Assembly (NCBI GenBank): GCA_902612125.1 | Contig: CACMBV010000009.1 | Coordinates: 1 to 64,000 of the forward strand | Source of the DNA: an uncultured Verrucomicrobiota bacterium | Lineage (GTDB): Bacteria; Verrucomicrobiota; Verrucomicrobiia; Opitutales; Seribacteraceae | Reading direction: 5' to 3' | Length of the DNA: 64,000 nucleotides | Shown here: positions 550 through 20,659 of the stretch, one piece after another | Layout of the letters: each line of letters starts with the position of its first letter | Position numbering within the stretch: the first letter of the stretch is position 1 | Program-made: the position numbers and the translations under genes | Notes under the pieces: generated by a model | The model's database searches: none | What the model saw: the letters and a program-made list of their open reading frames with translations, nothing else | What the model was told of the DNA's origin: nothing

Positions 550-628
550 AGGAAGAGTGAAGTTTGAAAGGTGAAGAGTGAAAAGTAAGCTCTGACTGTT
601 CCTTCTGTCATCACAAACCCAACCACCC

Positions 629-758
629 TTGTCATCGCGAGGGCTAAGCCCCTGGCGATCCACTGGTTCTCAGCAAGCGAACAGACAAACCCGCCCGCGT
701 CCTCCGAGACACGATGGATTGCCGCGTCCCTCGCTCCGCTGGCTCCTCGCAATGACAA
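629..758. repeat. Dispersed palindromic repeat, copy A
   Basis: Begins TTGTCATCGCGAGG and ends CCTCGCAATGACAA, which are near-perfect inverted ends (13 of 14). Internal arms also pair imperfectly (GGCGATCCACT near the left, GATGGATTGCC on the right). The same architecture recurs at 781-894 and 1682-1812, so this is a REP/MITE-like non-coding element. Short open frames inside it are by-products of the repeat. Upstream bases 550-628 hold only a purine-rich GTGAA-type stretch and no gene. Confidence 0.8.
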
Positions 759-780
759 AAGCCACGCACCCACTCCCACC

Positions 781-894
781 TTGTCATCGCGAGGGCGAAG
801 CCCGTGGCGATCCACAGTGAACCAGAAACCGAACAGACAAATCCGCCCGCATACCTCAAGCCACGATGGATTGCCACCTCCCTCGCAAAGACAA
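781..894. repeat. Dispersed palindromic repeat, copy B (shorter)
   Basis: Same left end (TTGTCATCGCGAGGGCGAAG) and the CCCGTGGCGATCCAC arm as copy C. The right part is shortened: it reads GATGGATTGCCACCTCCCTCGCAAAGACAA and lacks the segment between CCCTCGC and the final CTCGCAATGACAA seen in copies A and C. It lies 22 bases after copy A and 33 bases before the end of the toxin gene. Confidence 0.75.
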
Positions 895-927
895 TCCCAC
901 TCAATTTTGAAACATGAGCAGTCTGTA

Positions 928-1317
928 TCACCGAATTCTTTCGACTTCGTATGCATCCAGTTGATCATCCGTCGATAAAATCGGAGCATTCCGGTTTTGT
1001 GCTTCTGCAATAAGGTAGCGATCAAAAGGATCCCTATGATGCCAGGGAAGTTTACTTGCCCGGCAAATTGCCTGCCAGGATAGTGGAGCAATTTCAAACC
1101 CCTGGTTTTCCAATTCTCTGGGAAATTCGAGGGTGGTGGCCGGGTTGTAATTTAATTTCCCTAAACTTGTTTTGATTGATATTTCCCAAAGGCTGGCAAT
1201 GGAAACGAGGGAGACTCGATTTGAATCTTCGATTAAATCCGCAGCCCGAGAGGGTAATCTGCGATCATTTTGTAGAAAGAACAAAAGGATATTGGTGTCG
1301 ATGATCTGCTCGATCAT
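928..1317 (-). CDS. PIN-domain toxin, VapC-like ribonuclease
   Basis: A 129-residue protein of normal length for a PIN-domain toxin. The acidic metal-binding set is visible: D7 (IIDTNILL), E45 (LWEISIK), D96 and D99 (HRDPFDRYLIAEA) and D117 (LSTDDQLDAY). Family members are Mg-dependent RNases that block translation when not bound by their antitoxin. The start ATG overlaps the end of the upstream antitoxin gene by four bases (ATGA), the usual coupled arrangement. The HHRDPFDR and LWEISIKxxLGKL motifs are typical of the PIN subgroup paired with Phd/YefM-type antitoxins. The target RNA cannot be inferred. Confidence 0.9.
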   Translation of the reverse strand: MIEQIIDTNILLFFLQNDRRLPSRAADLIEDSNRVSLVSIASLWEISIKTSLGKLNYNPATTLEFPRELENQGFEIAPLSWQAICRASKLPWHHRDPFDRYLIAEAQNRNAPILSTDDQLDAYEVERIR

Positions 1318-1607
1318 TTCTTTTGGGTGGAATGATATTTTCCTTTGGGCTCAGAAGCTTTCAGTAAAGATGGGGATTCGGAGGTGAAGAAGTCTTCGAA
1401 GCCAATTTCGGACTGATCAAAATCCTTGCTCATTCTAAAATTCTTTCCCTTTAGACATCCACGAACAGGGGAATTTTTCGATGGGGGTCTTAATTCAGCA
1501 ACAACTTTTCCATGCCTGGTCAAGGCAATCGGGTTACCCGATTCCTGCACCTCCTGAACCAGAGCCGAAATTTTTGTTTTTGCTTCGTATAAACCAACTT
1601 CTTTCAT
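1314..1607 (-). CDS. Phd/YefM-type antitoxin of the PIN toxin pair
   Basis: A 97-residue protein whose first ~45 residues (GLYEAKTKISALVQEVQ, then PIALTRHGKVVAEL) match the Phd/YefM DNA-binding antitoxin fold. The remaining tail is polar and probably forms the toxin-wrapping segment. It precedes the PIN toxin with a four-base overlap. The start ATG lies just downstream of a strong promoter-like sequence carrying a palindrome, which fits classic autoregulation by the antitoxin-toxin complex. No Shine-Dalgarno sequence is visible before the ATG. Confidence 0.88.
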   Translation of the reverse strand: MKEVGLYEAKTKISALVQEVQESGNPIALTRHGKVVAELRPPSKNSPVRGCLKGKNFRMSKDFDQSEIGFEDFFTSESPSLLKASEPKGKYHSTQKK

Positions 1608-1613
1608 AGGCTT

Positions 1614-1642
1614 ATAATAGACCAGTTTGGTCTATTTAGCAA
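1614..1642 (-). promoter_or_regulatory. Promoter with embedded operator palindrome for the toxin-antitoxin operon
   Basis: On the minus strand a -35-like TTGCTA (1637-1642) and a -10-like TATTAT (1614-1619) are separated by exactly 17 bases. A perfect inverted repeat, AATAGACCA / TGGTCTATT with a 3-base centre, fills 1616-1636, covering the spacer and part of the -10. A repressor bound there would occlude RNA polymerase. The -10 ends only six bases before the ATG at 1607, so the transcript is probably leaderless or nearly so. Sequence match is direct; function is inference. Confidence 0.7.
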
Positions 1643-1681
1643 GGTCACGATTTTCTTATCAAAAAGCCGTCTTCCCCCACC

Positions 1682-1812
1682 TTGTCATCCCGAGGGCGAA
1701 GCCCGTGGCGATCCACTGGCTCTCAATAAACGAACCGCACCCTCCGTCCGCATCCCCCGAGCCACCATGGATGGCCGCGTCCCTCGCTTGCGTTCTCTCC
1801 TCGCAATGACAA
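1682..1812. repeat. Dispersed palindromic repeat, copy C
   Basis: Third copy of the element at 629-758 and 781-894, with left end TTGTCATCCCGAGGGCGAAG and right end CTCCTCGCAATGACAA. It lies between the toxin-antitoxin promoter and the sialidase gene, so the toxin-antitoxin cassette has a repeat copy on each side. Confidence 0.8.
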
Positions 1813-1888
1813 AGGGTGGGGTGTCATTCTATCGGATGGCAGGGTTTCGAGCTTGTACCATCTTCACCTCTTTCGTCTTAATTTAAAA

Positions 1889-3040
1889 ATGAAACTTCAT
1901 CTCGTCCTATTTCCTTTATCTTTTCTTTGTCTTAAGTTCCTGCACGGAGCAGAACGGAAGGTAACCATCATTCATAAGCAGGGGCAGTTTGACTGCCATA
2001 CTTTTCGGATTCCGGCCATGGTCACCACCAATAAGGGTACTTTGCTCGCGGTTTATGATATGAGATATAGGAGCCGGCGGGATTTGCAGGGGCATATGGA
2101 TATTGGATTATCCCGTTCGACGGATGGAGGAGAGACCTGGGCACGGCCGGTTCCGATCATGGATATGAAAAAGTTTGGCGGACTGCCCGAAGACCAGAAT
2201 GGATGTTCGGACCCGAATATTTTGATCGATCGTGAGACGGGCGAGATTTTTGTTTCGGCAGTGTGGACACATGGGAAACCGGACACGCACCAGTGGCGGG
2301 GAAAGGGATCGGAACCGGGTCATTCGATTCACCAATCATCCCAGTTCATGATGGTCCGCTCAACGGATGACGGAGTGACCTGGGGTGAGCCGGAGAATTG
2401 GACCCGGAGACTGAAGGATCCGCCATGGTGCCTCTTTGCCCCCGCCCCGGGGAATGGAATTACCCTCAAGGATGGCACCCTGGTCATGCCCACCCAGGGA
2501 AGGGATGCGGCTGGGTTACCCTTTTCCAATTTCATCTGGAGCATGGATCATGGGAAAAGCTGGACATTATCCAGCCCGGCACGCAAGAATACCACCGAGT
2601 GTGCGGTGGTGGAATTGAATGACGGTTCCTTACTCTTGAATATGCGGGATAACCGGAACCGATCCGATAAGTCAAAAACCAATGGCCGGGCAGTTAGCGT
2701 TACCCAAGATATGGGAAAAACCTGGACGGTTCATTCATCGGATCACGGATCCCTGCCCGAACCGGTCTGTATGGCCAGCCTGATAGCCCATGATTTAAGG
2801 GATGGGCGCCGGGTGCTCTTTTTTTCCAACCCGAACAGTAAACACCGCCGGGAAAAGATGACCGTGCGCATAAGCCTGGATCAGGGAAAGACCTGGCCCC
2901 AGTCCATCCTGCTCGACCCAAAGGGCGGGGCCTACAGCTCATTGACCATGGTGGATGATCAAACCCTGGGGATCCTCTATGAGTCTTCGGTGGCGGACAT
3001 GGTCTTTCAAAAAATCAAACTCTCCGAATTTGGATTGTAG
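1889..3040 (+). CDS. Exported sialidase (GH33-like, BNR/Asp-box repeats)
   Basis: Predicted exo-alpha-sialidase that would remove terminal sialic acid from glycans outside the cytoplasm. The ATG at 1889 is preferred over an upstream TTG (1853) because it opens a clean signal peptide ending near FLHGAE. The hallmark FRIP motif (arginine at about residue 40) follows, and five Asp-box repeats are seen: SRSTDGGETW, VRSTDDGVTW, WSMDHGKSW, TQDMGKTW and SLDQGKTW. The ~383-residue length suits a single six-bladed propeller. It lies upstream of a YHYH-protein gene and, after a decayed gene, an esterase/sulfatase run that includes a SASA esterase, consistent with attack on acetylated sialylated or sulfated glycans. 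Related BNR enzymes with other substrates cannot be excluded. Confidence 0.85.
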   Translation: MKLHLVLFPLSFLCLKFLHGAERKVTIIHKQGQFDCHTFRIPAMVTTNKGTLLAVYDMRYRSRRDLQGHMDIGLSRSTDGGETWARPVPIMDMKKFGGLPEDQNGCSDPNILIDRETGEIFVSAVWTHGKPDTHQWRGKGSEPGHSIHQSSQFMMVRSTDDGVTWGEPENWTRRLKDPPWCLFAPAPGNGITLKDGTLVMPTQGRDAAGLPFSNFIWSMDHGKSWTLSSPARKNTTECAVVELNDGSLLLNMRDNRNRSDKSKTNGRAVSVTQDMGKTWTVHSSDHGSLPEPVCMASLIAHDLRDGRRVLFFSNPNSKHRREKMTVRISLDQGKTWPQSILLDPKGGAYSSLTMVDDQTLGILYESSVADMVFQKIKLSEFGL

Positions 3041-3077
3041 GTTGTGATTTTTTTGATTCGCTACCATTTGTAAAAGT

Positions 3078-4058
3078 ATGAAATTTATAGCCCGTTTTGC
3101 CTCCTTCTTGCTTATAATCATCCTGGATGGAAATTTGGTATGGGCACAGGAAAGAAGACCGGGAGGAAGGCCTCCCGTCCGTAAGCATACCGTCACCGAG
3201 AAGGGAGTGCTTACACTGATCCCTGCGGAAGATAAACTGCCCTACAAGCAACAAAAGAAATTTACGGAGTCAAAGTCTGAGCTACAGGTGGAGTCCAATG
3301 CCATACCGAGGCATAAAATCGGGAAATTCCCCAGTGCCCGCAATCCGAATAAGGTCAGGGAGCAAAGTTTCAAATTTTCTTTACCCCTGGACCCAAAGCC
3401 GGCAAAAGAGCCAATCCCTCTGCATAACGACAGCGGGAGAGGTCCACCCAATACTCCTTTTGGCATTGCTCTCAATGGCGTGCTTTTTGATCCGGGGACG
3501 GCGGAATTTTACATGGGGGACCGTCGGGCGGATTGGAATTATGAAGCCCTAAGCGGGTCGGTGTTGCTGGGACTGGATGCGAATCATGGACATGTCCAAC
3601 CCAATGGCTCCTATCATTATCACGGATTGCCGGCCAGGCTTCTAAAAAAGCTCGGGGTCAAAGCGGGGGAACATTCTCCCCTCGTCGGATATGCCATGGA
3701 TGGATTTCCGATCTATGCCTTGTACGGCCATAAGAATCCAAAGGACCCGGAATCCGGGATTAAAAAACTAAGCAGTAGTTTCCGTCTTAAGAAAGGAAAC
3801 CGGCCCGATCCACCGGGTGGAAAATACGACGGTACTTTCAGCAAGGATTTTGAATATAAGGAGGGATCGGGGGACTTGGATCAATGCAATGGCCGCTTTA
3901 CCATAACCCAGGATTTCCCGGATGGTACCTATGCCTATTTTTTGACGGAGGACTGGCCGGTGATTCCCAGATATTTCAAGGCGGAGCCTTTGAGATTACG
4001 CGGAGGAGGACCGCCAAGACACCGGGTAGGCGGGTATGGCCCCAACCGTAGGCCTTAG
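3078..4058 (+). CDS. Exported YHYH-domain protein
   Basis: A 326-residue protein with an N-terminal signal peptide (through about residue 23, ending LVWAQ). The central region contains the family-defining motif NGSYHYHGLP, preceded by GLDANHGHVQ and followed by VGYAMDGFPIYALYG. This matches the YHYH protein family, whose biochemical role is not established; clustered histidines suggest metal binding. The N-terminal ~100 residues and the Arg/Pro/Gly-rich tail are low complexity. It starts 37 bases after the sialidase stop, so the two may be co-transcribed. Confidence 0.82.
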   Translation: MKFIARFASFLLIIILDGNLVWAQERRPGGRPPVRKHTVTEKGVLTLIPAEDKLPYKQQKKFTESKSELQVESNAIPRHKIGKFPSARNPNKVREQSFKFSLPLDPKPAKEPIPLHNDSGRGPPNTPFGIALNGVLFDPGTAEFYMGDRRADWNYEALSGSVLLGLDANHGHVQPNGSYHYHGLPARLLKKLGVKAGEHSPLVGYAMDGFPIYALYGHKNPKDPESGIKKLSSSFRLKKGNRPDPPGGKYDGTFSKDFEYKEGSGDLDQCNGRFTITQDFPDGTYAYFLTEDWPVIPRYFKAEPLRLRGGGPPRHRVGGYGPNRRP

Positions 4059-9612: not shown

Positions 9613-9789
9613 AAAGGTTTAATAATGAGGGAAATAATTTCTTCACTTTCCTGTATCCCTGGTTGAGCCCGGGGAGCAAAAATGGCCTCCAATCGATTAA
9701 CATTCTCACTGAGACATGGCTATGGTGAAGAATTTAGATATCCCCAAGTCAATCGCCCGGCTCAATGATCAAAACATTATCAGGAATCC

Positions 9790-10533
9790 TTAGAGTTGGC
9801 CGGAAATAGGACCATGATTTTTCTGATCAAAAGGATAGAAGCTAACCTCAATTTGCTGATTTTTCTGACGCATGAAGGTCTTAAATTCACGCAGTAATAA
9901 AATGGTCCTCGAGGAGCGACTGACAGAGGCAAGACAATGAAACAGAAAACTATTTCGAGAACTTATCCTAGCTTCGATTAGGGCAGCTCCAGACTTTTGG
10001 GCCATCCTGCGAAAATTCATTTTCCATGGAGATTCCTTAATGCTTAGGCAGGTCCAATCAAAATGTTCCACTGTTCCGGCCGGAAACAGACAAATACATC
10101 CATCTTCATCTAAATGTGAAAGCAACTGCCTTACGGTTGAGAAATTTCTTCCCTTCCCGTCGTTTGCCCGGGTAATGAATAACTCATTAAAGTGTGGGAT
10201 TTCGTGGAGTAACTGGTTAACCACAAACTTTAAATCCGGCCTAATCGCTTCCAGACAAAAAAGGAGCACTAAGCCGTCGCCCACACCCCGTGGGTGATTG
10301 GAAACCACCAGCAATGGACAACCCGTTGGAATTTTTTCCAATCCGTTAACTTTGATTCTTTTTTCTAGGTTGGAAATCTTCAGTAAATAACCCATAGCTT
10401 CCGCTTGGCTCTTAAAACTCGACAGCTGACGGAGCAGATTATTGGTAAAATCCATTGCCAGTAATTTATCCAGAAGTGCAACTGTCAGTTTTCCCTGTAG
10501 CATCACGGGAAGCTTGGATTTTAGGGTAAACAC
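9790..10533 (-). CDS. PlsC-like lysophospholipid/N-acyltransferase-family protein
   Basis: A 247-residue protein with the acyltransferase blocks VVSNHPRGVGDGLVL (His80, Asp86) and LFPAGTVEHFDW. The spacing NHP-x-G-x-x-D-G is that of the hemolysin/ornithine-lipid-type acyltransferase branch rather than classical PlsC. Family members move acyl chains to lipid or amine acceptors at the membrane. It is the last gene of the operon, 11 bases after the YcaO stop. A GTG start at 10533 is used; an ATG at 10503 would remove ten residues. In context it may add a fatty acyl group to the pathway product, but it could also be a separate lipid gene. Confidence 0.72.
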   Translation of the reverse strand: MFTLKSKLPVMLQGKLTVALLDKLLAMDFTNNLLRQLSSFKSQAEAMGYLLKISNLEKRIKVNGLEKIPTGCPLLVVSNHPRGVGDGLVLLFCLEAIRPDLKFVVNQLLHEIPHFNELFITRANDGKGRNFSTVRQLLSHLDEDGCICLFPAGTVEHFDWTCLSIKESPWKMNFRRMAQKSGAALIEARISSRNSFLFHCLASVSRSSRTILLLREFKTFMRQKNQQIEVSFYPFDQKNHGPISGQL

Positions 10534-10544
10534 CTGATATTCGA

Positions 10545-12089
10545 CTAAGTTTTATTCTTCAATGCTAGCTGAGCAGTGTGACTGGATGGCTCCCTGTAGA
10601 GAGCATAGAGATCATGGATCGTCGAATCTATCCGGTTGGCATCAAGCCACAGATCATCTCCAAGTCGGGCCTTGGCTTCCTCATCAATCAGTATGGGAAG
10701 GCAACGAGAGTGAAGTCTTTTCCCCCGACCAACCAATCCCAAGTCCCGGTTTTCTAGTCTTTGATAACCTCTTTCACCGATGCGGTAATAACTCATTGTT
10801 TCACCCTCCAGTTTGGTTACCACAGCCTTGACTGCCCGTGGACCGGAAGTACCCTCAGGCGAAGCGTCAAAGTAGAAAATAGATAACTTTTCATCAATTA
10901 GCTTTTTAGACAAAGAGTCCAGCCTGACCGGGTGGGATAGACTGGAGGAGTGGGATTCGTATGGCAGACTGGAAAACTTCACTTTAGTTTTTGAAGAAAG
11001 TACACTTTGCTCCAGTAGTTCCAATAACTCAGAGGGAGTCTTGCCCAGCCAGTCGGTCATTGCGTTTAGTGCTCTTTCTTCCTCACAGGCAGGATCTTGA
11101 TGATTGACCACCCGAGCAAAATATTCTTGCGGAGCGATTTTAGCGATTGCCTCCAAAGGACCGTGCATGAATGTCTTTCTGCATCTGGAAGCGAGGTATT
11201 CGGTTGAAGCCTTGCGAAGGGCTTTTTCGCGATTCGCATCAACCGCTTCTCCGCATGAAGTTACCACGAGGGGAAAGTGGTCGTTTTTGCCTCGTATGTA
11301 ATGGTCTTCCGCCGTGACATAAAGATTACAGAGGCCAAAATCGGTCGATGCAAGCTTTGGCCTGAGATTAATGCCAATATTTGCCAATTCGTTGAAAATC
11401 GAAAGGACTTCCGCATCAATTATCTCGTCCAATTCAATGTCGATTCCTTGATCCATGGCCCGGAAGTTGGTGCAATTTCCATCTCTTTGTAAAAGTTCGT
11501 AAATTGCGTGTAACAAGGCCTGCTCAAGGGTTTTTCCGGCACCCAATCCACAGGTAATGGGCGTGATAATTCTTTTGGACAAGTTCCCAGTATCATGAAG
11601 AACATTGAGGGTTGGTGATTCGTAATCACTCACAGATGCTGCAATGAATTCCCTGGGTATCCAATGGGGACTCATGGATGGATACGACTTCACTTCTACC
11701 CACTTCAATGGAATTTGTTTCGTGTAAAAACTACCCGCAGGAAGACAAAGGTGTTCGGGATTGATGACCCGATCAGTTCCAAACAAATCTGTCATCTCCA
11801 AGTAACTTAGTCCCAAACAGGATGGGGCATTTTGCAAAGAATAATGAAGATGATAGGTCTCACTTATTTCTCCGAGAGCCCCAACTTCGGATTCAAGTTC
11901 GCTGGTTCCATATCCAAAGCCATCATTGGTGAATCCTTGTTCGTCCCGTAATGAAGCGACTTTTATGGAAAAGCCGGTCCTGTCCAAGTCTCTTAAATCA
12001 AACGAAAAAAGGTTTTTACCATCCAGATGCTCAAGGTAGAGGTTTTTTGCCTCAACTAATGAATCATGACATGGAGCAACCGACTGCAT
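10545..12089 (-). CDS. YcaO-domain protein
   Basis: A 514-residue protein with the two glutamate-rich ATP-binding blocks of YcaO enzymes: GTSELESEVGALGEISE (about residues 61-77) and GLGAGKTLEQALLHAIYELL followed by QRDG (about 181-204). YcaO enzymes use ATP to activate amide carbonyls, giving azolines, thioamides or amidines in peptides, and occasionally act on small molecules. The C-terminus lacks the PxPxP ending common in azoline-forming YcaOs. No E1/ocin-ThiF partner, TfuA protein or convincing precursor peptide lies nearby, which argues for a small-molecule or unusual substrate. It begins 37 bases after the GNAT-type gene. The fold call is firm; the reaction is unknown. Confidence 0.85.
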   Translation of the reverse strand: MQSVAPCHDSLVEAKNLYLEHLDGKNLFSFDLRDLDRTGFSIKVASLRDEQGFTNDGFGYGTSELESEVGALGEISETYHLHYSLQNAPSCLGLSYLEMTDLFGTDRVINPEHLCLPAGSFYTKQIPLKWVEVKSYPSMSPHWIPREFIAASVSDYESPTLNVLHDTGNLSKRIITPITCGLGAGKTLEQALLHAIYELLQRDGNCTNFRAMDQGIDIELDEIIDAEVLSIFNELANIGINLRPKLASTDFGLCNLYVTAEDHYIRGKNDHFPLVVTSCGEAVDANREKALRKASTEYLASRCRKTFMHGPLEAIAKIAPQEYFARVVNHQDPACEEERALNAMTDWLGKTPSELLELLEQSVLSSKTKVKFSSLPYESHSSSLSHPVRLDSLSKKLIDEKLSIFYFDASPEGTSGPRAVKAVVTKLEGETMSYYRIGERGYQRLENRDLGLVGRGKRLHSRCLPILIDEEAKARLGDDLWLDANRIDSTIHDLYALYREPSSHTAQLALKNKT

Positions 12090-12126
12090 GAAGATAAAAT
12101 GGTTAGGTTAAAGAAAAAATTATCAT

Positions 12127-13053
12127 TTAGCTATTGAGCGTAATGGAATAACGGCGCGATTTAGCAATGATTTCAGCCCCCGCGTTTTTTGCAAGATGCA
12201 GGGTTTCCTGATGTCTTTCAGAATTTGCATTGAAGCAAAGAAAATCGATATCGATCTCCAACCCCTGGCGGACTGCTTCGTTAATAAGAACTGCATTCAC
12301 CCATGATCCCCTAAAATTTTTCTCCACCCATCGTATGAGAATTTCATAGGTTTTGATTTCGGTGTGCTTGGCTACCAAAATAATACCGACCATTTCTCCC
12401 ATAAATAAAACGGATAGACAATGATCTTGTGAAAAAGACTTTAATGAATCGCCTTTGAACTTATTGCGGAAGTCATAGTCGTCCATCATACCTGATTCGT
12501 GTAAGATTTTCATTGCGGTGTTGGAAACTTCCTTAATCGGTACCACTTTGTATCCGGGTGGAATTTTATTTTTTTTTGCCAAAGCTTTGGCGATCCGCGT
12601 TGCCCGCCTGGCAAAGAGTGTGAAAGGGACCCGTAAGGTAATAGATTCATCGATTGGTTTGAAACCAGCACTGATCAGTGCGGGTAAATCATTTCCTTTG
12701 AATAATGGTAATTTTTCTTGGGTGACCAACTGACGGATACCCATGTCAGATGCAATCTTCTTAACACATTGTAACGAGTCCCCGGAAAAATTATGAGAAC
12801 CACTTTCATTGAGGTTTCTAATTACAAATCTGCCATCCTCTTTGGCTGGATTTGAGAGTCGATGGACTCCAATCAGATAGCTTGTTTTGCGTTGGCTTGG
12901 AAAAGCGTGAATTCTGGTTTGTTCGCAATCTGGAAAGGGGATGCTTCGAATTGCCTCAGAGGTGACGTTAGTGGGCTCAAATGTTTTATTAGAAGGTAAG
13001 GTATACCTGGTCCTTCTTGTGGTGCTAGTTGGTATGTGCGATGTTGTTTTCAT
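12127..13053 (-). CDS. GNAT-type acyltransferase, possibly tandem-domain
   Basis: A 308-residue protein. The C-terminal half (about 190-305) reads as a GNAT-like domain: CLSVLFMGEMVGIILVAK strand pair, YEILIRWVEKNFRGSWVNAVL, then FNANSERHQETLHLAKNAGAE. The N-terminal half (about 55-150) has a weaker GNAT-like pattern ending GFKPIDESITLRVPF. Two GNAT units in ~310 residues resembles the layout of mycothiol acetyltransferase MshD, though I see no specific signature. The start ATG lies 29 bases inside the 3' end of the MBL-fold gene, so translation is probably coupled. It could acylate an amine freed by the neighbouring deacetylase; this is inference. Confidence 0.6.
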   Translation of the reverse strand: MKTTSHIPTSTTRRTRYTLPSNKTFEPTNVTSEAIRSIPFPDCEQTRIHAFPSQRKTSYLIGVHRLSNPAKEDGRFVIRNLNESGSHNFSGDSLQCVKKIASDMGIRQLVTQEKLPLFKGNDLPALISAGFKPIDESITLRVPFTLFARRATRIAKALAKKNKIPPGYKVVPIKEVSNTAMKILHESGMMDDYDFRNKFKGDSLKSFSQDHCLSVLFMGEMVGIILVAKHTEIKTYEILIRWVEKNFRGSWVNAVLINEAVRQGLEIDIDFLCFNANSERHQETLHLAKNAGAEIIAKSRRYSITLNS

Positions 13054-13927
13054 TTATAAATGGTCTTTGCAGTCGTTCGAGTGAAATGAAATGTGATGAG
13101 GGCCGTTCTACTTGAAAAAGCTCAAATAGTTGTAGGGCTTCTTCACAACCAAAATTAAATACTTGCTCAAAAGGCGTGAATGTTTTGTTAAAATTCATTT
13201 TTGAAAAGACTTTATGATACTGAGCGGCTTCCTTTTGGGTAATCGGTACTCCGCGGACGAATGCTTTATGCGAAGAGACACGAAGAGCCGTTCTGGGCGA
13301 ATCATTTGAGCATTCAAATTTCAACGAGTCTCCGCAAAAGCATATTTCTTTTTCCTTATCGTATGCAAAGGTGTGGCCGGCGAAATGCACTCCACTGTGC
13401 AGAACGGAGAATCTCTCGGTAAATTGTAATATATCATCGAATGGCCAAGTAACCTGAAAGGCTCCTGCCCAAGAATAATCTTCAGGGTGCATAATAATCT
13501 CAGGTTCAAAAAGCTCTTCTATCTGCCAGAGAGCACCGTAAGAATGAGGATGGGAGGAAGAAAGATAGGAAATTCCGCCCAAGTCCCTAATATTACTGAT
13601 TACCTCGTCCGAGAAAACGGTTGCTCCTTCGAAGAGAAAATTACCGGATTGGCTTATCGAGAGGTAGGAATTTGGGCCGATGCCTTCAACTGGCTCATTC
13701 CAAATTCTATATAATCCTTCGAGGAGTTTTTCCATATGGCACGGGTATCGGTCCCTGGCCTCCTCAAAGGGTCGAAAGACCCAATCACCCGTAGGTGGAA
13801 CATGACGGGAATCGAGACAGATTGGACACGAAGTTGGAACCTGGGATGAACGCTGCCAAAAACCACAGTTTGTACAAACGAATGCCGTGAGTCGTAAGGA
13901 GGGTAAAAATGGGGATAGTCCTGGCAT
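13025..13927 (-). CDS. Metallo-beta-lactamase-fold protein with N-terminal zinc ribbon
   Basis: Residues 18-37 contain a four-cysteine knuckle (CTNC ... CPIC) followed by DSRHVPPTGDWVF, as in a family of MBL-fold hydrolases with a rubredoxin/zinc-ribbon-like leader. The MBL region has GPNSYLSISQSGNFLFEG and SSSHPHSYGALWQ in place of the canonical HxHxDH, then HSGVHFAGHTFAYD and CFCGDSLKFE. The incomplete metal motif means catalytic activity is uncertain, although this divergent HPHxYG form is typical of its subfamily. It lies between the PIG-L deacetylase (11-base gap) and the GNAT-type gene (29-base overlap). The role in the pathway is unknown; hydrolysis of a thioester or lactone-like intermediate is one option. 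Confidence 0.72.
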   Translation of the reverse strand: MPGLSPFLPSLRLTAFVCTNCGFWQRSSQVPTSCPICLDSRHVPPTGDWVFRPFEEARDRYPCHMEKLLEGLYRIWNEPVEGIGPNSYLSISQSGNFLFEGATVFSDEVISNIRDLGGISYLSSSHPHSYGALWQIEELFEPEIIMHPEDYSWAGAFQVTWPFDDILQFTERFSVLHSGVHFAGHTFAYDKEKEICFCGDSLKFECSNDSPRTALRVSSHKAFVRGVPITQKEAAQYHKVFSKMNFNKTFTPFEQVFNFGCEEALQLFELFQVERPSSHFISLERLQRPFINENNIAHTN

Positions 13928-13938
13928 AGCTGTCAGTT

Positions 13939-14724
13939 TTAAACTTTCGAGAGCAATGTTTTATTACCCAAAATAGGAAACGAGGAGCTCGGGTTTCTCG
14001 GTACGATGCTTATGCCTTGCTGCCATGCTTCAGATAGGAATGAGGCGGCATTTTGTTCTCCGCCAAACTGATATCCCAGCTGTGAGTGAAATTGACATAC
14101 TCCTCTCAACGAATTCTTTAAGCAATCATCATCGAAATAATAGGTGTAGTCAGTTGAAATAATTGGTGGTGCGGAATTTTTCTTTTTAAATTTACTGTAG
14201 TAAGGTTGATCCAAATAATAAAACAACCCGGTATTTTTACCATCTGGGTTTTCCTCGATGACTCTTTTTAAAAGCCTGTGATCTACATGATTGCCTATCG
14301 CTGAGGGGCTAAATACATAAATTGCCGGAAACTTTTCCATTACTTCGTTTATCCAGCTGCTAATTTCACTCCTAAGTTTTTCCTCTTTTTGCAAATTGCC
14401 AAAAAGAAGATTTGAGGAATTATATCCACGATGAGGTGCTTCGAGAAAAGGGCCATGGACTATTTCTACTTTCTCAATAAGTGTGGCTGCCCAGTTTTTA
14501 TCTTCCAGACGCCGTAATTCCATGTAATCGAAATCTTCGGCGAATCCCTTACTCGTTTGACATTCCAGTGCAAAACCGGAGGGATGCAACTTGGATCCTG
14601 TAAAGCAGGTTGCGACTACACAGCGAAATCCCTCTTCAGAGAGTTTTACGATCAAAGGAGTACAGGAAAATGCAACATCATCCAAATGCGGGGAAAAGAA
14701 AATTATTGAATGATCTCCCGTCAT
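13939..14724 (-). CDS. PIG-L/LmbE-family N-deacetylase
   Basis: A 261-residue cytoplasmic protein with the zinc-site motif [10 protein letters not shown] (H13, D15, D16) and the second motif GNHVDHRLL (H146, D148, H149), both standard for PIG-L/LmbE deacetylases. Family members remove the acetyl group from GlcNAc conjugates, as MshB does in mycothiol and BshB in bacillithiol synthesis. The start overlaps the stop of the GT4 gene by four bases (ATGA), the same glycosyltransferase-then-deacetylase pairing expected for a GlcNAc-conjugate pathway. The exact substrate is inferred only. Confidence 0.85.
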
Positions 14725-15986
14725 AGCAAGTGAGGTTCGTATCTAAACTTGCAACTCAAGTCAGCATTTTCCAGATGGGTAAGAGGATTGTAAATTTTTT
14801 CCCATCCGTCATCAGGTTTTCTTGGAAGCACTTTTTCGATGCTTTTTGTCAGGAGAAGAGATACTGTTTTCCAGCTATATTTTGCATTAACTTCTGAAAT
14901 CGCGGCGGATGCCAATTTTTTTCGGAGGACATGATTTTTAAGTAGCAAACTGATTTTGTCAGCCAGGTCTTCAATATCATGAGGTTCATGGAGCAGCCCA
15001 TTTTCCAGGTGTCTGATGCAGTCTACGACCCCCACTGAATTGGCGGCGATGATTGGAATTCCGCTGGACATGGCTTCGAGTATGGTGTTCGAAAATCCTT
15101 CCGACCAAGTAGGTGAGAGAAAAATTTCAGACTTCCTGTAAATCTCAGGTACATCTGAGTAACGGGCTTTTCCGGTAAATTCAACCAAATGGCTCAATTT
15201 AAGTTTATTGGCCAAGTCTATCGACTCTTCCAAGTCAGGACCAATTCCGCTCACCACAAGCTTAATAGGGCAAGTTTCCTTTACCAGTTGTAAAGCTTCC
15301 AAAAGATCAAAAATCCCTTTTCGTCGATCGACCCGTCCATGGTAAAGAAGTTTTGCCGGGTTGGAAAGTTCTCCCAATTGCGCTGAGCGATTTGGCCGAA
15401 AATCATCCGAGTTAATTGCACCCGGTATAATTAACAATCGTTCCTTGTCCAGGTTATGGTTCTTGCAGACTTCATCGGCAAAGGAACTACTTCCAATAAT
15501 CAGAAGATTTGCATGATTAAGTACCGCAAGCATCGCGGATTTGTGGGTCGAACAACATAACCCGACCCAGTGGCCGTCGCCACCCTGAATGCTAACCACA
15601 TTGGGAATGCCAAGCCTCGAGGAAATTTTCAGGGCGGCCATTCCATTGGGATAACAATATTGTGCGTGTATCAAGTCGAACGGCTTCCTCTTATGCAGGG
15701 TCACTGCAAGTTTGACCATCTGATCCATGTCAGACTCAAAATCTGCAGGCTTACCGGAGTTGGCGATTTCTTCGCCGTGGCTGCGCAACCCATGAATCTC
15801 CACCTTATCCAGAAGACTTGGTGGTCCGCCACCGTATATCCTGGTCCCTACTTCATCCTCCCTGTACTGGGATATCATAACCATATCATGTCCCAAATTC
15901 GTCATCTCGCGCAGGTAATTCATGGCATAGACACTCATTCCGCTTATGGTTGGAAAATACCTTCTGGACAAAAAGCATATTCTCAT
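14721..15986 (-). CDS. GT4-family glycosyltransferase
   Basis: A 421-residue GT-B enzyme. The N-terminal domain starts [17 protein letters not shown] with the donor-side glycine loop. The C-terminal domain has [12 protein letters not shown] (about 213-224) and [17 protein letters not shown] with the EX7E pair E296/E304. This architecture is shared with MshA and BshA, which move GlcNAc to inositol phosphate or malate, but also with many polysaccharide enzymes. It lies three bases after the methyltransferase-oxidoreductase fusion and overlaps the deacetylase by four. It probably attaches a sugar, perhaps GlcNAc given the PIG-L partner, to the pathway cyclitol. Confidence 0.85.
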
Positions 15987-15989
15987 AAG

Positions 15990-18278
15990 TCAACTTTTTT
16001 CGAAGGCCTTGAGAAACATAGCCATGGTTTCAATTTCAGTTTCGTCCACCAAAGAAGGCTTGCCAGGTTTCTGCCATTCTCTTGAAACTTTGTCGAGTTG
16101 CCTGACAAAAGGAGAATAAATGTGGTCATTTGGAAAATTGATCTCTTTCGACCCATGCAGAGTGGTAACTTTAAGATGACCACCCGCTTCCTGACCCAGG
16201 GTATTAAGAGCGTAAATCCTTCCCTCCGTTCCGATTATCTCAAGTTGTCTTCGGGGCAAGGGGTCCGGGCAATTGTATCCACATTGAACGGTGCCCAAGA
16301 TTCCACACCGTGTTTTAAACTGAGCAATCGCTCCATCGTCAACCGCTGACTCTTTTTGAGAGTAGGAATGCACGAGATTCTGTCTTTCCAGAGTAATTGA
16401 TTGAAAGGAGGTGCGTAAGAGAAAGGAACACAAATCAAGACCATGTGGGATTAAGTCAATGGAAGCTCCACCGCCCGCAGCCTGTCTATCGATCCGCCAA
16501 TTCACGGAGGATCTTGACCAGTCCTCAGACAACCAGCACGCATAATGAATGCGAATCTGAGTGACTTGTCCCAATTCTCCTTTGGCAAGAAGGGTTTTGA
16601 TGAGTTGGTGGGCGGGGTGATACCTTTGGTTGTAAGCCGACTTCAGGCGTACGCCGGCTTCCTTGCAGAATGAAACGGCTTTACGCAGATCTTTCAAATT
16701 GGTACAGATTGGTTTTTCACAAAGAATATTGATCCCAAGACTCGAGGCTTGCTCGATAATTCGAAGGTGCTGGTCGTTCGGAGTTGAAATATAAATGGCA
16801 TCCAGTGCGGATGGATCTTCCAAGTCTTCGAGCGAAGAGCGGCATTCGATTTTCTCCCCGAAATCCCCAGTGAATTCTGCGAAAGCTTGCGGGTCAGAAT
16901 CTATTATTGCTCGAAGGGAAGAATGCGGACTGTATTGGAAGGAGGGAATCATGAAATCGTTGGCTACCCAACCCATGCCCACCACCCCCCACTTGATTGG
17001 TAAATTCGCGACCGTTGAAAAAAAAGAAGGTTGCATAACCCTAAAGTCAATGCTTCCGGAAAGATACATGGGGCCGTCCGACGGCAATTTCGGGCTATCC
17101 ATGGAGGTTCTTTTCGTGGCTAAGTCGAACTCCTTCCTGAAAAGGTCATCGGGCCATTGCATAGATAATTCATGGGCTGAGTTTTCAGCCGCGAAGGGGG
17201 AGGCAACGAAAAAAGCCTCTTTCAAAAGACCGAGTGTAGGATCTGGAGGGGAATTTTTGGTCGAAGACTGAACAATGTATATAGCTTCATCAGTGGAGAG
17301 GTATTGCAATGACGAATCAATTGAATCCAAAAAGTCGTTCGCCAATTCCAAATCCGATCCGATTTGCAGGTAGGTATCATCACTGAACAAAGATTGATAT
17401 TTCTCCCTGGTTAAAGGATATCCTGAAACTATTCCGTGTTCCTGATCCGACAGATGTGCGTGGCCAATCAGAATTTGGCTTCCGCGACAGAAATTTGAGG
17501 AAATACGGTCAATTATTTTTTGTTTATTTTTAAAAAAATAAAAAGCATCGTGACAAAAAAAGGAAGCGGAACCGCAGGAAGTGGAAAAAGGAAACATTTT
17601 ACCAGACTCAAGGTCAGCGGCGATCATTGGAAAAGATTGAACCAATCTCGCTTTTCTGGAAATCCACAACTTAGAAAATACAAAATCTACGCAAATTCCC
17701 TGAATACCCATTTGTTCAAGAATGGATGAGAAGTGACCAATTCCGCAACACAGATCAACAAAAAGGTTTGCAGGATCAAGAAAATTATTGAGCAATCCCA
17801 AACCTGAAAAGAAACTCGGGGTGTTTGGCCTGAGTTGAAAATATTGGCAAACTCTGCCATAGTTCAAGGCTTCCATCGTACCACTTGCGTCAAAGGTATT
17901 GTCAGGATTGAGCAAGTAATTTTCAGCGATTTCAAGGGCTATTTCAAAGCGGGGAAATTGAAGAGCGTAATTATCTGAGTCAGAAAGGGCGTAAGCCAAA
18001 GCATGGGCCCATTTGCAGTCTCGAATCTCAGTGCAAATTTTTTTGGCCAAGTCGTGCCTGCTTGCATTTAAAAAAATGATTCCGTCAATTTGTGGCCATC
18101 CTTCGAAAGAGGGATTTTGGGTGTCTTTCCAGAAGCCCCATGGCTCTTGACCGGGAGCGTTGGGAATGGGTTCGAAAATAAGCTCAGAGCAAGTATTCGG
18201 ATCATATAGTTTGGGGAGACCAGAAGAATTAGTATTAAATCCAGTAGAAGAACTCCGATGAGGTTCTATCTTGATCAT
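15990..18278 (-). CDS. Methyltransferase - Gfo/Idh/MocA oxidoreductase fusion
   Basis: A 762-residue two-domain protein. Residues about 165-335 form a SAM-dependent methyltransferase, with motif I FVDLCCGIGHFSSIL (173-187). Residues about 428-760 form a Gfo/Idh/MocA NAD(P)-dependent oxidoreductase, with the Rossmann start WGVVGMGWVANDF and the EKP motif at 521-523. The N-terminal ~160 residues have no family I recognise. The frame is continuous, so this is a real fusion. In vertebrates, gadusol is made from a sugar-phosphate-cyclase product by MT-Ox, also a methyltransferase-oxidoreductase fusion, which makes the nearby cyclase notable. The start overlaps the HD-domain gene stop (ATGA). Confidence 0.82.
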   Translation of the reverse strand: MIKIEPHRSSSTGFNTNSSGLPKLYDPNTCSELIFEPIPNAPGQEPWGFWKDTQNPSFEGWPQIDGIIFLNASRHDLAKKICTEIRDCKWAHALAYALSDSDNYALQFPRFEIALEIAENYLLNPDNTFDASGTMEALNYGRVCQYFQLRPNTPSFFSGLGLLNNFLDPANLFVDLCCGIGHFSSILEQMGIQGICVDFVFSKLWISRKARLVQSFPMIAADLESGKMFPFSTSCGSASFFCHDAFYFFKNKQKIIDRISSNFCRGSQILIGHAHLSDQEHGIVSGYPLTREKYQSLFSDDTYLQIGSDLELANDFLDSIDSSLQYLSTDEAIYIVQSSTKNSPPDPTLGLLKEAFFVASPFAAENSAHELSMQWPDDLFRKEFDLATKRTSMDSPKLPSDGPMYLSGSIDFRVMQPSFFSTVANLPIKWGVVGMGWVANDFMIPSFQYSPHSSLRAIIDSDPQAFAEFTGDFGEKIECRSSLEDLEDPSALDAIYISTPNDQHLRIIEQASSLGINILCEKPICTNLKDLRKAVSFCKEAGVRLKSAYNQRYHPAHQLIKTLLAKGELGQVTQIRIHYACWLSEDWSRSSVNWRIDRQAAGGGASIDLIPHGLDLCSFLLRTSFQSITLERQNLVHSYSQKESAVDDGAIAQFKTRCGILGTVQCGYNCPDPLPRRQLEIIGTEGRIYALNTLGQEAGGHLKVTTLHGSKEINFPNDHIYSPFVRQLDKVSREWQKPGKPSLVDETEIETMAMFLKAFEKS

Positions 18279-19177
18279 GAAATTAATCCAAAGGATTTTA
18301 ATGTATCCAGTTGAAAGCTTTTGACTGGCCCGTCATGAATGAGATCCAGTTCTTCGATGGCATGGGTAACTGAGAAACTATGGGCTGTTTCGTAATACTG
18401 CATTTGTAATACCCGATCCAAACAGTCAGCCGCATGGAATGCTTTGGCAACCGGAGAGGAGGCCTCTTCGATTTCTTTAAAAAGACGGGATATCTTAGAA
18501 TTCGTGCGACTCGAAAGGCTTGACATGGCAAGAGATCTTGCTGATTCGATTGATTTGGTAAGATGGTTTCCCAACAGACATTCTCCTGCATATCCAGAGT
18601 CTGGCAGGGTCAAGTTATGTAGATGATGAAAAAGACCAATTAAAAAAGAGTCAGTTGGGTCACTGCCATAGAATGGAGAAAGTAAAAATGCATAGGCAGC
18701 GACCATCATGCAATGATCAGCATGAGACTCGACCGGATATAAAACGACCCTGGGCTTACCCGGGGTGGTGGGACCCGCTCTTGGTTGTGAAATGAGACCA
18801 TTAACTAATTTATTTGAACGAAGTTTGGGATCGTCAAACGAAACCAAACTATTACTGGTTTCAAGTCTGAGATTTATTTTCAGGGCATCGAGTTCGACCT
18901 GAAACGAATCGATCGTTTCCCGGAAGATGTTGAGTATTTGGTCGGCAGTCAAACCGACGGAGCTGAGGTTGTTGTAATTTAAGAATCCCAGCCTGGAACC
19001 AGCCAGAAACATGGTAACCAGTTGTTCAATTGATTTGTCGGAATTCGGTGGATCGCAATACTCAACTGCCACTGCGAACGCAGCTTCAGCAAAAGACAAA
19101 CCATTCGAGGTGTTGGACTTAATCCTTTTGAGCTCATTGAGTTCTTTAAAAAGAGAAAGGGCGTGAGTCGGATGCAT
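18275..19177 (-). CDS. HD-domain-like protein, possible phosphohydrolase
   Basis: A 300-residue protein. Its C-terminal half looks like an HD-superfamily domain: VESHADHCMMVAAYA (H152, H155), a central GLFHHLHNL (H184-H185, where classical members have HD) and AFHAADCLDRVLQ (D251/D254). The pattern is closest to nucleotidase-type HD proteins, with the helix order conserved. The N-terminal ~130 residues are helical and not recognised. If active, it could remove a phosphate from the cyclitol intermediate before or after glycosylation; this is inference. It starts 24 bases after the cyclase stop and overlaps the fusion gene by four. Confidence 0.6.
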   Translation of the reverse strand: MHPTHALSLFKELNELKRIKSNTSNGLSFAEAAFAVAVEYCDPPNSDKSIEQLVTMFLAGSRLGFLNYNNLSSVGLTADQILNIFRETIDSFQVELDALKINLRLETSNSLVSFDDPKLRSNKLVNGLISQPRAGPTTPGKPRVVLYPVESHADHCMMVAAYAFLLSPFYGSDPTDSFLIGLFHHLHNLTLPDSGYAGECLLGNHLTKSIESARSLAMSSLSSRTNSKISRLFKEIEEASSPVAKAFHAADCLDRVLQMQYYETAHSFSVTHAIEELDLIHDGPVKSFQLDTLKSFGLIS

Positions 19178-19201
19178 GTAAGTTGTTCATGAGGAATTCA
19201 A

Positions 19202-20416
19202 TTATAGAGAAGACCCTAACTCTTGAGAAAGAGATTCGAGCTCATTAATTGAATCACGCATAATCTTTTGTGAGATCGAATGAACATTAATTGGATGACC
19301 GGGAGATTCGATCAGGGTAACAGTTAAAATTCCCCCGAGATGTTGTCTAAATTCTTCCAACCCCATAAGAATTACGTCAGTATTTCTCATTAATGGATGG
19401 AAAGTGGGGAGACCCATGTCAGCCAGGCATTTTATGGCCTTGTGGCAATAATCAGTAGCCAAACCGTGCACTTTTGAACTGTAAATGCAGTCCAAGGCAA
19501 CCCCGATGGCTACTGCTTCTCCGTGCCTTATTTCGTACTTGGAGAGAGGTTCAAGTTTGTGAGCAGACCAGTGTCCAAAATCCAAGGGTCTGGCAGTTTC
19601 CGATTCGAAGGGATCTCCCCCTTTGGTAATGTGATCCAAATGAAACAATACCGATTGGGTAATGGCCTCCTTACATATCGCTGGATTTCTTTTGTTGATA
19701 TCGAATGCGTGAGCACATAACCAAGAGAACTTTTCAGGACTTTTCAATAAGAACACTTTCAATGCCTCACTGAAACCACAATGGAAATCCCTGTCGGAGA
19801 GTGATTCAAGAATACCGTAATCATTAATTACTCCCCATGGAACGCTGAAAGAGCCCAACCAGTTTTTTTTGCCAAAATGATTGATTGCATTTTTGACGCC
19901 GACCCCTGAATCAGCCTGTGAAAGGGTAGTGGCAGGGACTCGGATAATTCTGATTCCACGGTGGGCAAGGGCAGCAGCATAACCAACGGAATCTAGAGCG
20001 GCCCCACCGCCAATTGCTAAAACATAGCTTCTCCTGTCCAAATCATCATAATTGAAGGAAGTCCACATTTCTTCAATGATTTGGTTATTCATTTTGGAGT
20101 TTTCTCCCCCGGGGGTTGTATGAAAGCCCCTGTAATCAATTGATGAAGAGTTGGTCAAAAGATTATCGATGGATTCAACTTTCTCGGGAGAAAATTTCAA
20201 AACCCCGGAGTCAATCCAAGCCTGAACTTTTGGCAAAGTTTCGTTAGACCGTTCAAATAAATCTTCCAAGACTCCAAAATCGCTGGAAAATAAATTTTGA
20301 CTCGAGCGAAGTCTGATTGTGAATGGCACATTGAAGTTGACATTTTTCGAGGGCAGGGATTTTGGATGGTTATCGTCACAAAAGAGGAGAGTGTTATCTT
20401 GAATTGAATTATTCAC
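19202..20416 (-). CDS. EboD-like sugar-phosphate cyclase (3-dehydroquinate-synthase superfamily)
   Basis: A 404-residue protein with the NAD-binding GGGAALDSVGYAA (136-148) and the block RVPATTLSQADSGVGVKNAI. Metal-ligand positions of the superfamily are kept: E217 (GFSEALK), H282 (DFGHWSAHKLE) and H298 (RHGEAVAIG). The phrases SGVGVKNAINHFGKKNWLG and ARPLDFGHWSAHKLE are those of EboD-type homologues rather than AroB. The superfamily converts sugar phosphates such as sedoheptulose 7-phosphate or DAHP into cyclitols. It is the first gene of the operon, starting with GTG. No other Ebo gene (EboA, B, C, E or F) is nearby, so it probably feeds this local pathway. Substrate preference is unresolved. 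Confidence 0.85.
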   Translation of the reverse strand: MNNSIQDNTLLFCDDNHPKSLPSKNVNFNVPFTIRLRSSQNLFSSDFGVLEDLFERSNETLPKVQAWIDSGVLKFSPEKVESIDNLLTNSSSIDYRGFHTTPGGENSKMNNQIIEEMWTSFNYDDLDRRSYVLAIGGGAALDSVGYAAALAHRGIRIIRVPATTLSQADSGVGVKNAINHFGKKNWLGSFSVPWGVINDYGILESLSDRDFHCGFSEALKVFLLKSPEKFSWLCAHAFDINKRNPAICKEAITQSVLFHLDHITKGGDPFESETARPLDFGHWSAHKLEPLSKYEIRHGEAVAIGVALDCIYSSKVHGLATDYCHKAIKCLADMGLPTFHPLMRNTDVILMGLEEFRQHLGGILTVTLIESPGHPINVHSISQKIMRDSINELESLSQELGSSL

Positions 20417-20659
20417 ACACTTAGAACGAAGAAAGAATATTAAAAGTTTAACACAGGACTCAGAAGTAAGTAAATTTTATGTGAGCAGATAAGTCAGATT
20501 ATATTTCATTTGAGATCAATTTTCTATGATTTTCTTGCCGGGGTTTCTTACAATTTCACGCAAGGACATCAAAAAACGAATAGCGATACTTAAATTTTTA
20601 GTACAACACAAATTTTACCTAAGCATATCCCCTTACAAACCTATAAACATAAGAACTAA

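Follow-up and report, generated by a model that had tools for sequence, protein, structure and literature searches.

A putatively mobile nine-gene operon of uncultured Verrucomicrobiota as a candidate pathway for a modified cyclitol-aminosugar

In a stretch of 64,000 nucleotides from an uncultured Verrucomicrobiota bacterium of the family Seribacteraceae (contig CACMBV010000009.1 of the assembly GCA_902612125.1; the whole stretch is called the window here), nine minus-strand genes at 9790-20416 form a set that, at one site in the genus, is present whole or absent. Its core recurs in clusters on plasmids from two other phyla, and the first position of the clusters is taken by either a sugar phosphate cyclase (SPC) or a myo-inositol-phosphate synthase (MIPS), an exchange that, of all the evidence, speaks most strongly for a cyclitol pathway. 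We read the set as a mobile operon for one small-molecule pathway, whose product is likeliest a modified cyclitol-aminosugar, and consider the chances of this reading to be about even.

A gene block present or absent at one site

An open reading frame check of the window found nine frames, at the coordinates already given in a first-pass annotation of this DNA (Table 1). From the cyclase gene to the PlsC gene, the order is SPC-HD-methyltransferase/Gfo-GT4-PIG-L-MBL-GNAT-YcaO-PlsC (GT4, glycosyltransferase family 4; MBL, metallo-beta-lactamase fold) and the intergenic gaps are 24, -4, 3, -4, 11, -29, 37 and 11 bp; with gaps from -29 to +37 bp, the tightly coupled minus-strand set of that annotation is borne out. 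Domains were called with the curated cut-offs of Pfam, which were exceeded by SPC, HD, Gfo/Idh/MocA, GT4, PIG-L, YcaO and PlsC, and the labels first given to the HD, GT4, PIG-L, YcaO and PlsC proteins are retained.

The set lies in an 11.0-kb island. At empty sites in the same genus the flanks of the island are 126 bp (genome G014), 282 bp (G012) and 258 bp (G023) apart, so the block is whole or absent at this site, without polarity between gain and loss. In genome G021 the left flank (96-98%) runs into PlsC and YcaO up to the end of the contig. In genome G022, contigs C108 and C164 hold pieces of the island (91-97%), and the contigs with the flanks, C92 and C20, reach the island edges; YcaO was not found in this 91% complete genome, the copy being either broken in the assembly or devoid of YcaO. 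Genome G001 has PlsC, YcaO, GNAT and MBL (69-77%) on a contig beside sulfatase genes and the counterpart of the left-flank sulfatase gene on contig C7, i.e. its island lies elsewhere than in the window. Part of the unit was found in at least 4 of the 27 genomes of the genus, absence elsewhere being uncertain given that many genomes are incomplete. In the wider search of relatives, YcaO turned up in 3 of the 134 genomes and in none of the 92 more complete ones. From this patchiness, the other place in G001 and the plasmid relatives described below, we infer that the block is mobile.

Two further observations concern the island site. In genome G010 the right flank adjoins the left-hand esterase gene, with neither the island nor the neighbouring sulfatase gene, an arrangement (L068, 2145-2294) that implies more than one change at the site. 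The island of G001 (L013, 1-7427) adjoins two sulfatase genes and a fatty-acid desaturase gene.

Table 1. Features of the nine-gene locus, with positions in the window
Feature	Position	Strand	Basis or remarks
Sugar phosphate cyclase (SPC), diverged EboD paralogue	19202..20416	-	PF01761 and PF24621; PRK06203
HD-domain protein	18275..19177	-	PF13023; HH and N replace the usual active-site HD and E
Methyltransferase (~aa 1-425) fused to Gfo/Idh/MocA oxidoreductase (~aa 428-762)	15990..18278	-	PF01408 and PF22725
GT4 glycosyltransferase	14721..15986	-	PF00534; EX7E motif at 296
PIG-L type N-deacetylase	13939..14724	-	PF02585; HLDD at 13, HVDH at 146
Zinc-ribbon and metallo-beta-lactamase-fold protein	13025..13927	-	sub-threshold RUBY_RBDX; relatives
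Probable tandem-GNAT acyltransferase	12127..13053	-	fold matches of a low-confidence model
YcaO enzyme lacking both an E1-like domain and a PxPxP motif	10545..12089	-	PF02624
PlsC-type acyltransferase	9790..10533	-	PF01553 and PF19576; nearest OlsF and GlsA
Leader between the operon and the divergent FG-GAP gene	20417..20659		small frames only
Present/absent 11.0-kb island	9644..20643		between sulfatase gene and FG-GAP gene; edges from G014 alignment

The sequence context adds little. The frames of the leader are 27-45 aa long, one of 31 aa lying on the operon strand (20516-20611); the small frames at both ends of the block measure 16-45 aa, and the G022 stretch that matches the leader lies in or beside an assembly gap. 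A single promoter-like site was seen on the minus strand (20526-20498), and the promoter and terminator scans of the locus as a whole were not above shuffled controls. Base composition is 43.5% in the block, 49.1% to its left and 45.0% to its right; since 13 of 107 sliding 11-kb windows are lower, it is no strong mark of transfer. A defence system was considered and rejected, none of the nine proteins matching PADLOC at 1e-5. A scan of a bacterial genome collection, made with two poorly conserved peptides, led to one locus (that of G001) and is too narrow to show spread. Outside the island, window positions 1-1813 give many short overlapping, repeat-like matches to 1-3700 of a G021 locus (L014).

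Recurrence on plasmids and exchange of the first gene

Recurrence was searched with tblastn in 72,556 plasmid records, which were the material covered in other phyla. The window YcaO matched four records (E 1e-5), those of Roseomonas haemaphysalidis p546-2, Methylobacterium bullatum, M. aquaticum pMaq22A_1p and Hymenobacter volaticus; at E 0.01 the window HD protein matched exactly these four, and the Roseomonas HD protein did likewise at E 0.001. Fourteen records were matched by the window GT4 at E 1e-20, the four with YcaO and HD at 47-49% and the other ten at 22-31%. The Roseomonas YcaO also matched 14 (E 1e-10), namely its own record, those of the three other clusters at 41.5-46.7% and ten more at 27-31%. 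The MBL protein, with 163 records, is less specific than YcaO and HD, those of Hymenobacter and Roseomonas being clearly its best. A neighbourhood search for co-occurrence had been proposed in the first-pass annotation, and co-occurrence was found: YcaO, HD and the close relatives of GT4 lie in the same four of the 72,556 records. Judged by these matches, the core of the gene set recurs in three phyla, Verrucomicrobiota, Alphaproteobacteria and Bacteroidota.

Common to the window and all four plasmid clusters are HD, Gfo, YcaO, GT4 and PIG-L. The methyltransferase is found in three of the four plasmid clusters and MBL in two, having been detected in neither Methylobacterium record (locus and whole plasmid, the chromosomes lying outside the search). 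The Roseomonas cluster has the order MIPS-HD-methyltransferase-Gfo-MBL-YcaO-TIM barrel-GT4-PIG-L, which is also that of Hymenobacter, without a detected methyltransferase. In all four plasmid clusters MIPS (two Pfam families over cut-off) takes the first slot, directly before HD, and the first part of the window order is collinear with theirs, with MIPS or SPC in the first position. When the four plasmid loci were searched at E 1, SPC gave nothing beyond a chance 34-aa match, PlsC a chance 24-aa match only and GNAT no match at all, nor did GNAT match the plasmid collection at E 0.1. MIPS (PF01658) was found in none of the four cluster-bearing genomes of the genus, which are 60-91% complete with one above 90%, so that a missed copy is possible; the control was positive in 6 of 14. 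The plasmid clusters thus differ from the window in having MIPS rather than SPC, an added TIM barrel, separate methyltransferase and Gfo genes, and no GNAT or PlsC found.

The earlier reading is borne out in part. The proposed cyclitol start is supported by MIPS, which all four plasmid clusters carry where the window has SPC, and the mycothiol-type logic of GT4 and PIG-L by the presence of both in all five clusters. The single-pathway view is supported by genes that come and go as one block and by the joint occurrence, in two other phyla, of five or six of these nine genes. A chance neighbourhood of independent genes, for which one could cite that GT4 and Gfo often have lone homologues in the genus or in the window's own genome, is already contradicted by the block at one site and by the recurrence, and is hardly tenable. 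One statement is unsupported or overstated, namely that such enzyme classes are not normally found in one operon: a cyclase, an N-acetylglucosamine (GlcNAc) transferase and a deacetylase are also the core of 2-deoxystreptamine clusters, as far as the gene list in PMC8719888 goes.

Some peculiarities of individual plasmids were also recorded. In Hymenobacter, Gfo and GT4 each extend over two frames (L021, 14075-15123 and 18326-19584), for which decay or sequencing errors are possible causes. Both Methylobacterium records have genes for an LPG_synthase_TM membrane protein and a histidine kinase after the cluster (L019, 20386-23443; L020, 21381-23904), and M. bullatum there also has a 361-aa frame without a Pfam match.

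Predicted enzymes and the proposed pathway

The cyclase scores 432.5 bits against the NCBIfam family PRK06203 (EboD; cut-off 333) and carries the motifs EALK at 217, FGH at 280 and HGE at 298. Among its 16 PDB matches, the first six are dehydroquinate synthases, 4p53, which we take to be ValA, is the seventh, and a 2-deoxy-scyllo-inosose (DOI) synthase is the weakest (65.2 bits). The protein is 36-40% identical to the EboD proteins of 11 relatives, which are 63-97% alike, and 26% identical to one AroB, and is a diverged EboD paralogue, separate from EboD. Cluster cyclase, EboD and AroB are all present in G022; a further protein over the EboD cut-off occurs in 34 of the 57 relatives searched, and in G021 EboD adjoins UbiA and phosphodiesterase genes, in an ebo-operon-like manner. 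The incomplete genome of the window yielded the cluster cyclase and an AroB-like protein only, with no further protein over the EboD cut-off found. The EboD-like label of the first-pass annotation stands as a family assignment, but for a separate paralogue that is at most a candidate 2-epi-5-epi-valiolone synthase (EEVS). For EboD itself, sedoheptulose 7-phosphate is the putative substrate, as proposed in PMC5133447.

In the methyltransferase-oxidoreductase fusion, the Gfo half is over the cut-off, whereas the methyltransferase half is weaker and is identified through its relatives. It has no Pfam match over the cut-off (PF08241, E 0.048), shares 30% identity over 298 aa (E 2.9e-27) with a Roseomonas protein that does exceed the PF08241 cut-off, and matches separate methyltransferase genes in Roseomonas and both Methylobacterium records, where methyltransferase and Gfo are adjacent genes. 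A search of 387 Verrucomicrobiota genomes with this half found one, the genome of the window itself. For the oxidoreductases tested, xylose dehydrogenase was the best NCBIfam family and inositol 2-dehydrogenase the second (100-109 bits, cut-off 355), the latter counting in favour of the proposed pathway.

The GT4 protein shows 48-52% identity (best segment) to those of the four plasmid clusters and PIG-L (PF02585, 48.7 bits) shows 31-35% in all four, and both retain their motifs in the window. The core of mycothiol synthesis is MIPS, GT4 and PIG-L, and the same classes are met in GT4, PIG-L and the MIPS of the plasmid clusters; MshD (2c27, E 4.9e-3) is among the weaker fold matches of the window GNAT. 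A mycothiol-like redox cofactor, for which YcaO and GNAT would attach an amino acid or a thiol to a glucosamine-cyclitol by acylation, is nevertheless distinctly unlikely. GT4 reaches 80.4 bits against the MshA equivalog (cut-off 462.5) and also misses the BshA cut-off by far, no MshC-like ligase is among the nine genes, and GNAT was not found in the four plasmid relatives. Mycothiol synthesis is not known to involve methylation or oxidation of its cyclitol, which we count against this possibility too. A mycothiol operon proper was rejected on the MshA score, the lack of an MshC domain and the failure to find MIPS in the four genomes of the genus, MIPS being present in the plasmid relatives. 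In short, the window resembles mycothiol synthesis in GT4, PIG-L and GNAT, and its plasmid relatives in MIPS, but it is without MshC, has SPC in place of MIPS and adds methylation and oxidation steps.

Two proteins are harder to place. In the HD protein (PF13023, 29.9 bits, cut-off 22.5), the residues H184, H185, H187, N188 and D251 are invariant in all five relatives. By comparison with 2cqz, to which the alignment is weak (E 0.033), all five members of the family have HH for HD and N for the following E, substitutions that make ordinary HD phosphohydrolase chemistry doubtful; folded alone, the protein gave a model too poor to use (mean predicted local distance difference test, pLDDT, 38.7). 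The zinc-ribbon MBL label holds in part: the RUBY_RBDX match is below the cut-off, the MBL-fold match is sub-threshold (E 0.013) and there are two CxxC pairs, and the label is carried by the Roseomonas and Hymenobacter cluster proteins (33% and 36%), one of which was tested and is over the Pfam cut-off. Other MBL relatives (25-30% identity) occur on listed plasmids of Pantoea, Cronobacter and Corynebacterium and, by tally, also of Rhizobium and Sinorhizobium.

The YcaO assignment is firm (PF02624, 107.6 bits, cut-off 25.7). Its best NCBIfam family is the SagD-type cyclodehydratase of thiazole/oxazole-modified microcins, below the cut-off (72.3 bits, cut-off 219.25), and for the Roseomonas YcaO the SagD-type and McrA thioamidation families score equally (111.8 and 111.7). 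These scores, and the 31-aa frame on the operon strand of the leader, speak for a ribosomally synthesised and post-translationally modified peptide (RiPP), or for a protein-modifying system, with sugar tailoring. We hold this to be very unlikely, given that the nine window proteins include no E1-like, TfuA or dehydrogenase partner, that YcaO lacks a PxPxP ending, and that a ring-forming enzyme comes first in all five clusters for which the leading gene could be read. At the block ends there are small frames only, with no convincing precursor peptide gene seen among them. A classical YcaO RiPP cluster was rejected, there being neither an E1-like or TfuA partner nor PxPxP.

The glutamate of E-xx-E-R-D in YcaO proteins binds metal. 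LynD and MJ1094 carry this motif, whereas the cluster family has Q201 in an ExxQRD helix (E-xx-Q-R-D-G), invariant in 6 of 6 aligned relatives. Seven of the 387 Verrucomicrobiota genomes matched the YcaO alignment, that of the window at 819 bits and six partially at 19-62 bits. Three of the six distant regions (L023-L028) were checked and, apart from YcaO itself in one of them, contained no match to a cluster protein at E 1e-3; by their gene content they appear to be other YcaO settings, outside the cluster. A viral-contig scan with the alignment found no relative. We know of no YcaO that acts on a small sugar-like molecule, and an ATP-driven coupling on a small molecule as the YcaO step is a bold guess; ATP-grasp enzymes do comparable ATP-driven coupling in mycosporine synthesis.

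Acylation would be confined to the Verrucomicrobia version. The window GNAT has no Pfam match at E 10 and its orthologue stays below the cut-off (E 0.0014), so the first-pass label is kept on the strength of a low-confidence model (mean pLDDT 48.3) whose best fold matches are tandem GNATs; the gene probably encodes a tandem-GNAT acyltransferase. MshD-like acylation, as first proposed, has this GNAT-like gene in its favour but no plasmid match, and hence would be lineage-specific. A lead absent from the first-pass annotation comes from PlsC, which by profile scores is nearest to the O-acyltransferase part of OlsF (127.1 bits) and to GlsA (77.7), both below full-length cut-offs, PRK08633 (19.4) being the one other NCBIfam match. 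Since a separate OlsF-like protein of ~627 aa is found in the window's genome and six other genomes of the genus, aminolipid chemistry probably exists there. The finding of a tandem GNAT and an aminolipid-like PlsC solely in the Verrucomicrobia version suggests N- and then O-acylation in that version. Compared with the ornithine and glycine lipid synthases, whose OlsF and GlsA are the best families for PlsC, the operon has no OlsB-type N-acyltransferase, given a GNAT without a Pfam match whose poor model is tandem-GNAT-like.

The same lipid-like traits, and the LPG_synthase_TM gene that comes after PIG-L in both Methylobacterium clusters, would fit an envelope glycolipid locus: an acylated amino-glycolipid would be assembled by GT4, PIG-L, GNAT and PlsC, with an unusual head group provided by the cyclitol genes. 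We regard this as unlikely, since GNAT and PlsC have no counterparts beyond chance in the plasmid loci, GNAT is without a Pfam match and looks tandem-GNAT-like, and YcaO is left with no role.

The cluster family spans the logics of aminoglycoside and mycothiol synthesis, and from this we infer a modified aminosugar-cyclitol, with reactions, order, GT4 acceptor and donor as follows. The cyclase would make a cyclitol, of seven carbons if the substrate is sedoheptulose 7-phosphate, and the fused methyltransferase-Gfo enzyme would oxidise and methylate a ring position. GT4 would then attach an N-acetylated sugar and PIG-L free its amine, giving an aminosugar-cyclitol pseudodisaccharide. With ATP, YcaO may activate a carbonyl oxygen of this small molecule and then join an amine or close a ring. 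For the Verrucomicrobia version we propose that the product is acylated by the tandem GNAT and the aminolipid-type PlsC, which might tether it to the membrane.

Several points weigh against the cyclitol-aminosugar pathway. Even with different ring-forming enzymes, GT4 is the most strongly conserved protein (~48%), and it may therefore act on an acceptor other than the direct product of the cyclase. A role for HD as an inositol-phosphate phosphatase does not fit the window version, because the SPC product should carry no phosphate and yet HD is in all five clusters. Hymenobacter yielded no methyltransferase and the two Methylobacterium records no MBL, the TIM-barrel enzyme of the plasmid clusters is absent from the nine window genes, and the GNAT assignment draws on a model of mean pLDDT 48.3. 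The search for the island in other phyla was limited to plasmids. As to the photoprotective role considered below, no UV-repair gene was among the Methylobacterium flanking frames tested.

Known systems and a possible role in photoprotection

The core of 2-deoxystreptamine aminoglycoside synthesis comprises DOI synthase, a GlcNAc transferase and a deacetylase (gene list of PMC8719888). The window is alike in the classes of cyclase, GlcNAc transferase and N-deacetylase, assigned here by class alone; its cyclase, however, is of the EboD type, and YcaO, HD, MBL and the methyltransferase are extra. An aminoglycoside cluster was rejected because no cyclitol aminotransferase is among the nine genes. 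Gadusol is made by EEVS and MT-Ox, a methyltransferase fused to an NAD-type oxidoreductase, and the likeness to the window, by the domain description in PMC4426668, lies in a cyclase and a methyltransferase-oxidoreductase fusion; the window oxidoreductase, in contrast, is of the Gfo/Idh/MocA type, and methyltransferase and Gfo are separate in the plasmid clusters that have both. With the ebo operon the window shares a cyclase of the PRK06203/EboD family. An ebo operon was rejected, as no UbiA, amidohydrolase, phosphodiesterase or xylose-isomerase-like gene is among the nine (EboA, being outside Pfam, was outside this search). In the open-access literature, with YcaO paired with pathway and host terms and with subscription papers and preprints outside the search, no paper on the cluster was among those listed.

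Photoprotection is our favoured guess for the role of the product. We count in its favour that uvsE and two spore photoproduct lyase genes lie within ~10 kb of the Roseomonas cluster (L018, 161-1231 and 21738-23859). One member of the genus is a single cell of plate AG-892, another cell of which belongs to the GORG-Tropics set from the sunlit ocean, and Methylobacterium strains are reported to contain UVA-absorbing compounds; both facts are counted on the same side. No gene cluster tied to these UVA absorbers was found in the sources consulted.

Going further, the set may define an undescribed natural-product family spread over the three phyla. YcaO would act on the glycosylated cyclitol rather than on a peptide: it would phosphorylate an oxygen of a vinylogous acid or an amide and couple this to the amine that PIG-L has freed. 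SPC or MIPS, two unrelated cyclitol synthases, would feed the same back end. The product would be a UV-absorbing, mycosporine-like aminosugar conjugate, acylated and membrane-bound in the ocean version, and the UVA absorbers reported from Methylobacterium could stem from the version in that genus. We think this extended proposal unlikely.

The analysis delivers a defined, recurring gene set that places YcaO within a carbohydrate pathway without a known peptide partner. It is unusual for SPC and MIPS to replace each other naturally at the head of clusters that are otherwise shared, and this makes the pathway testable, the Methylobacterium versions being plasmid-borne in culturable bacteria. If the photoprotective role is true, the operon would represent a further route to sunscreen-like compounds, beside mycosporine-like amino acids, gadusol and scytonemin.

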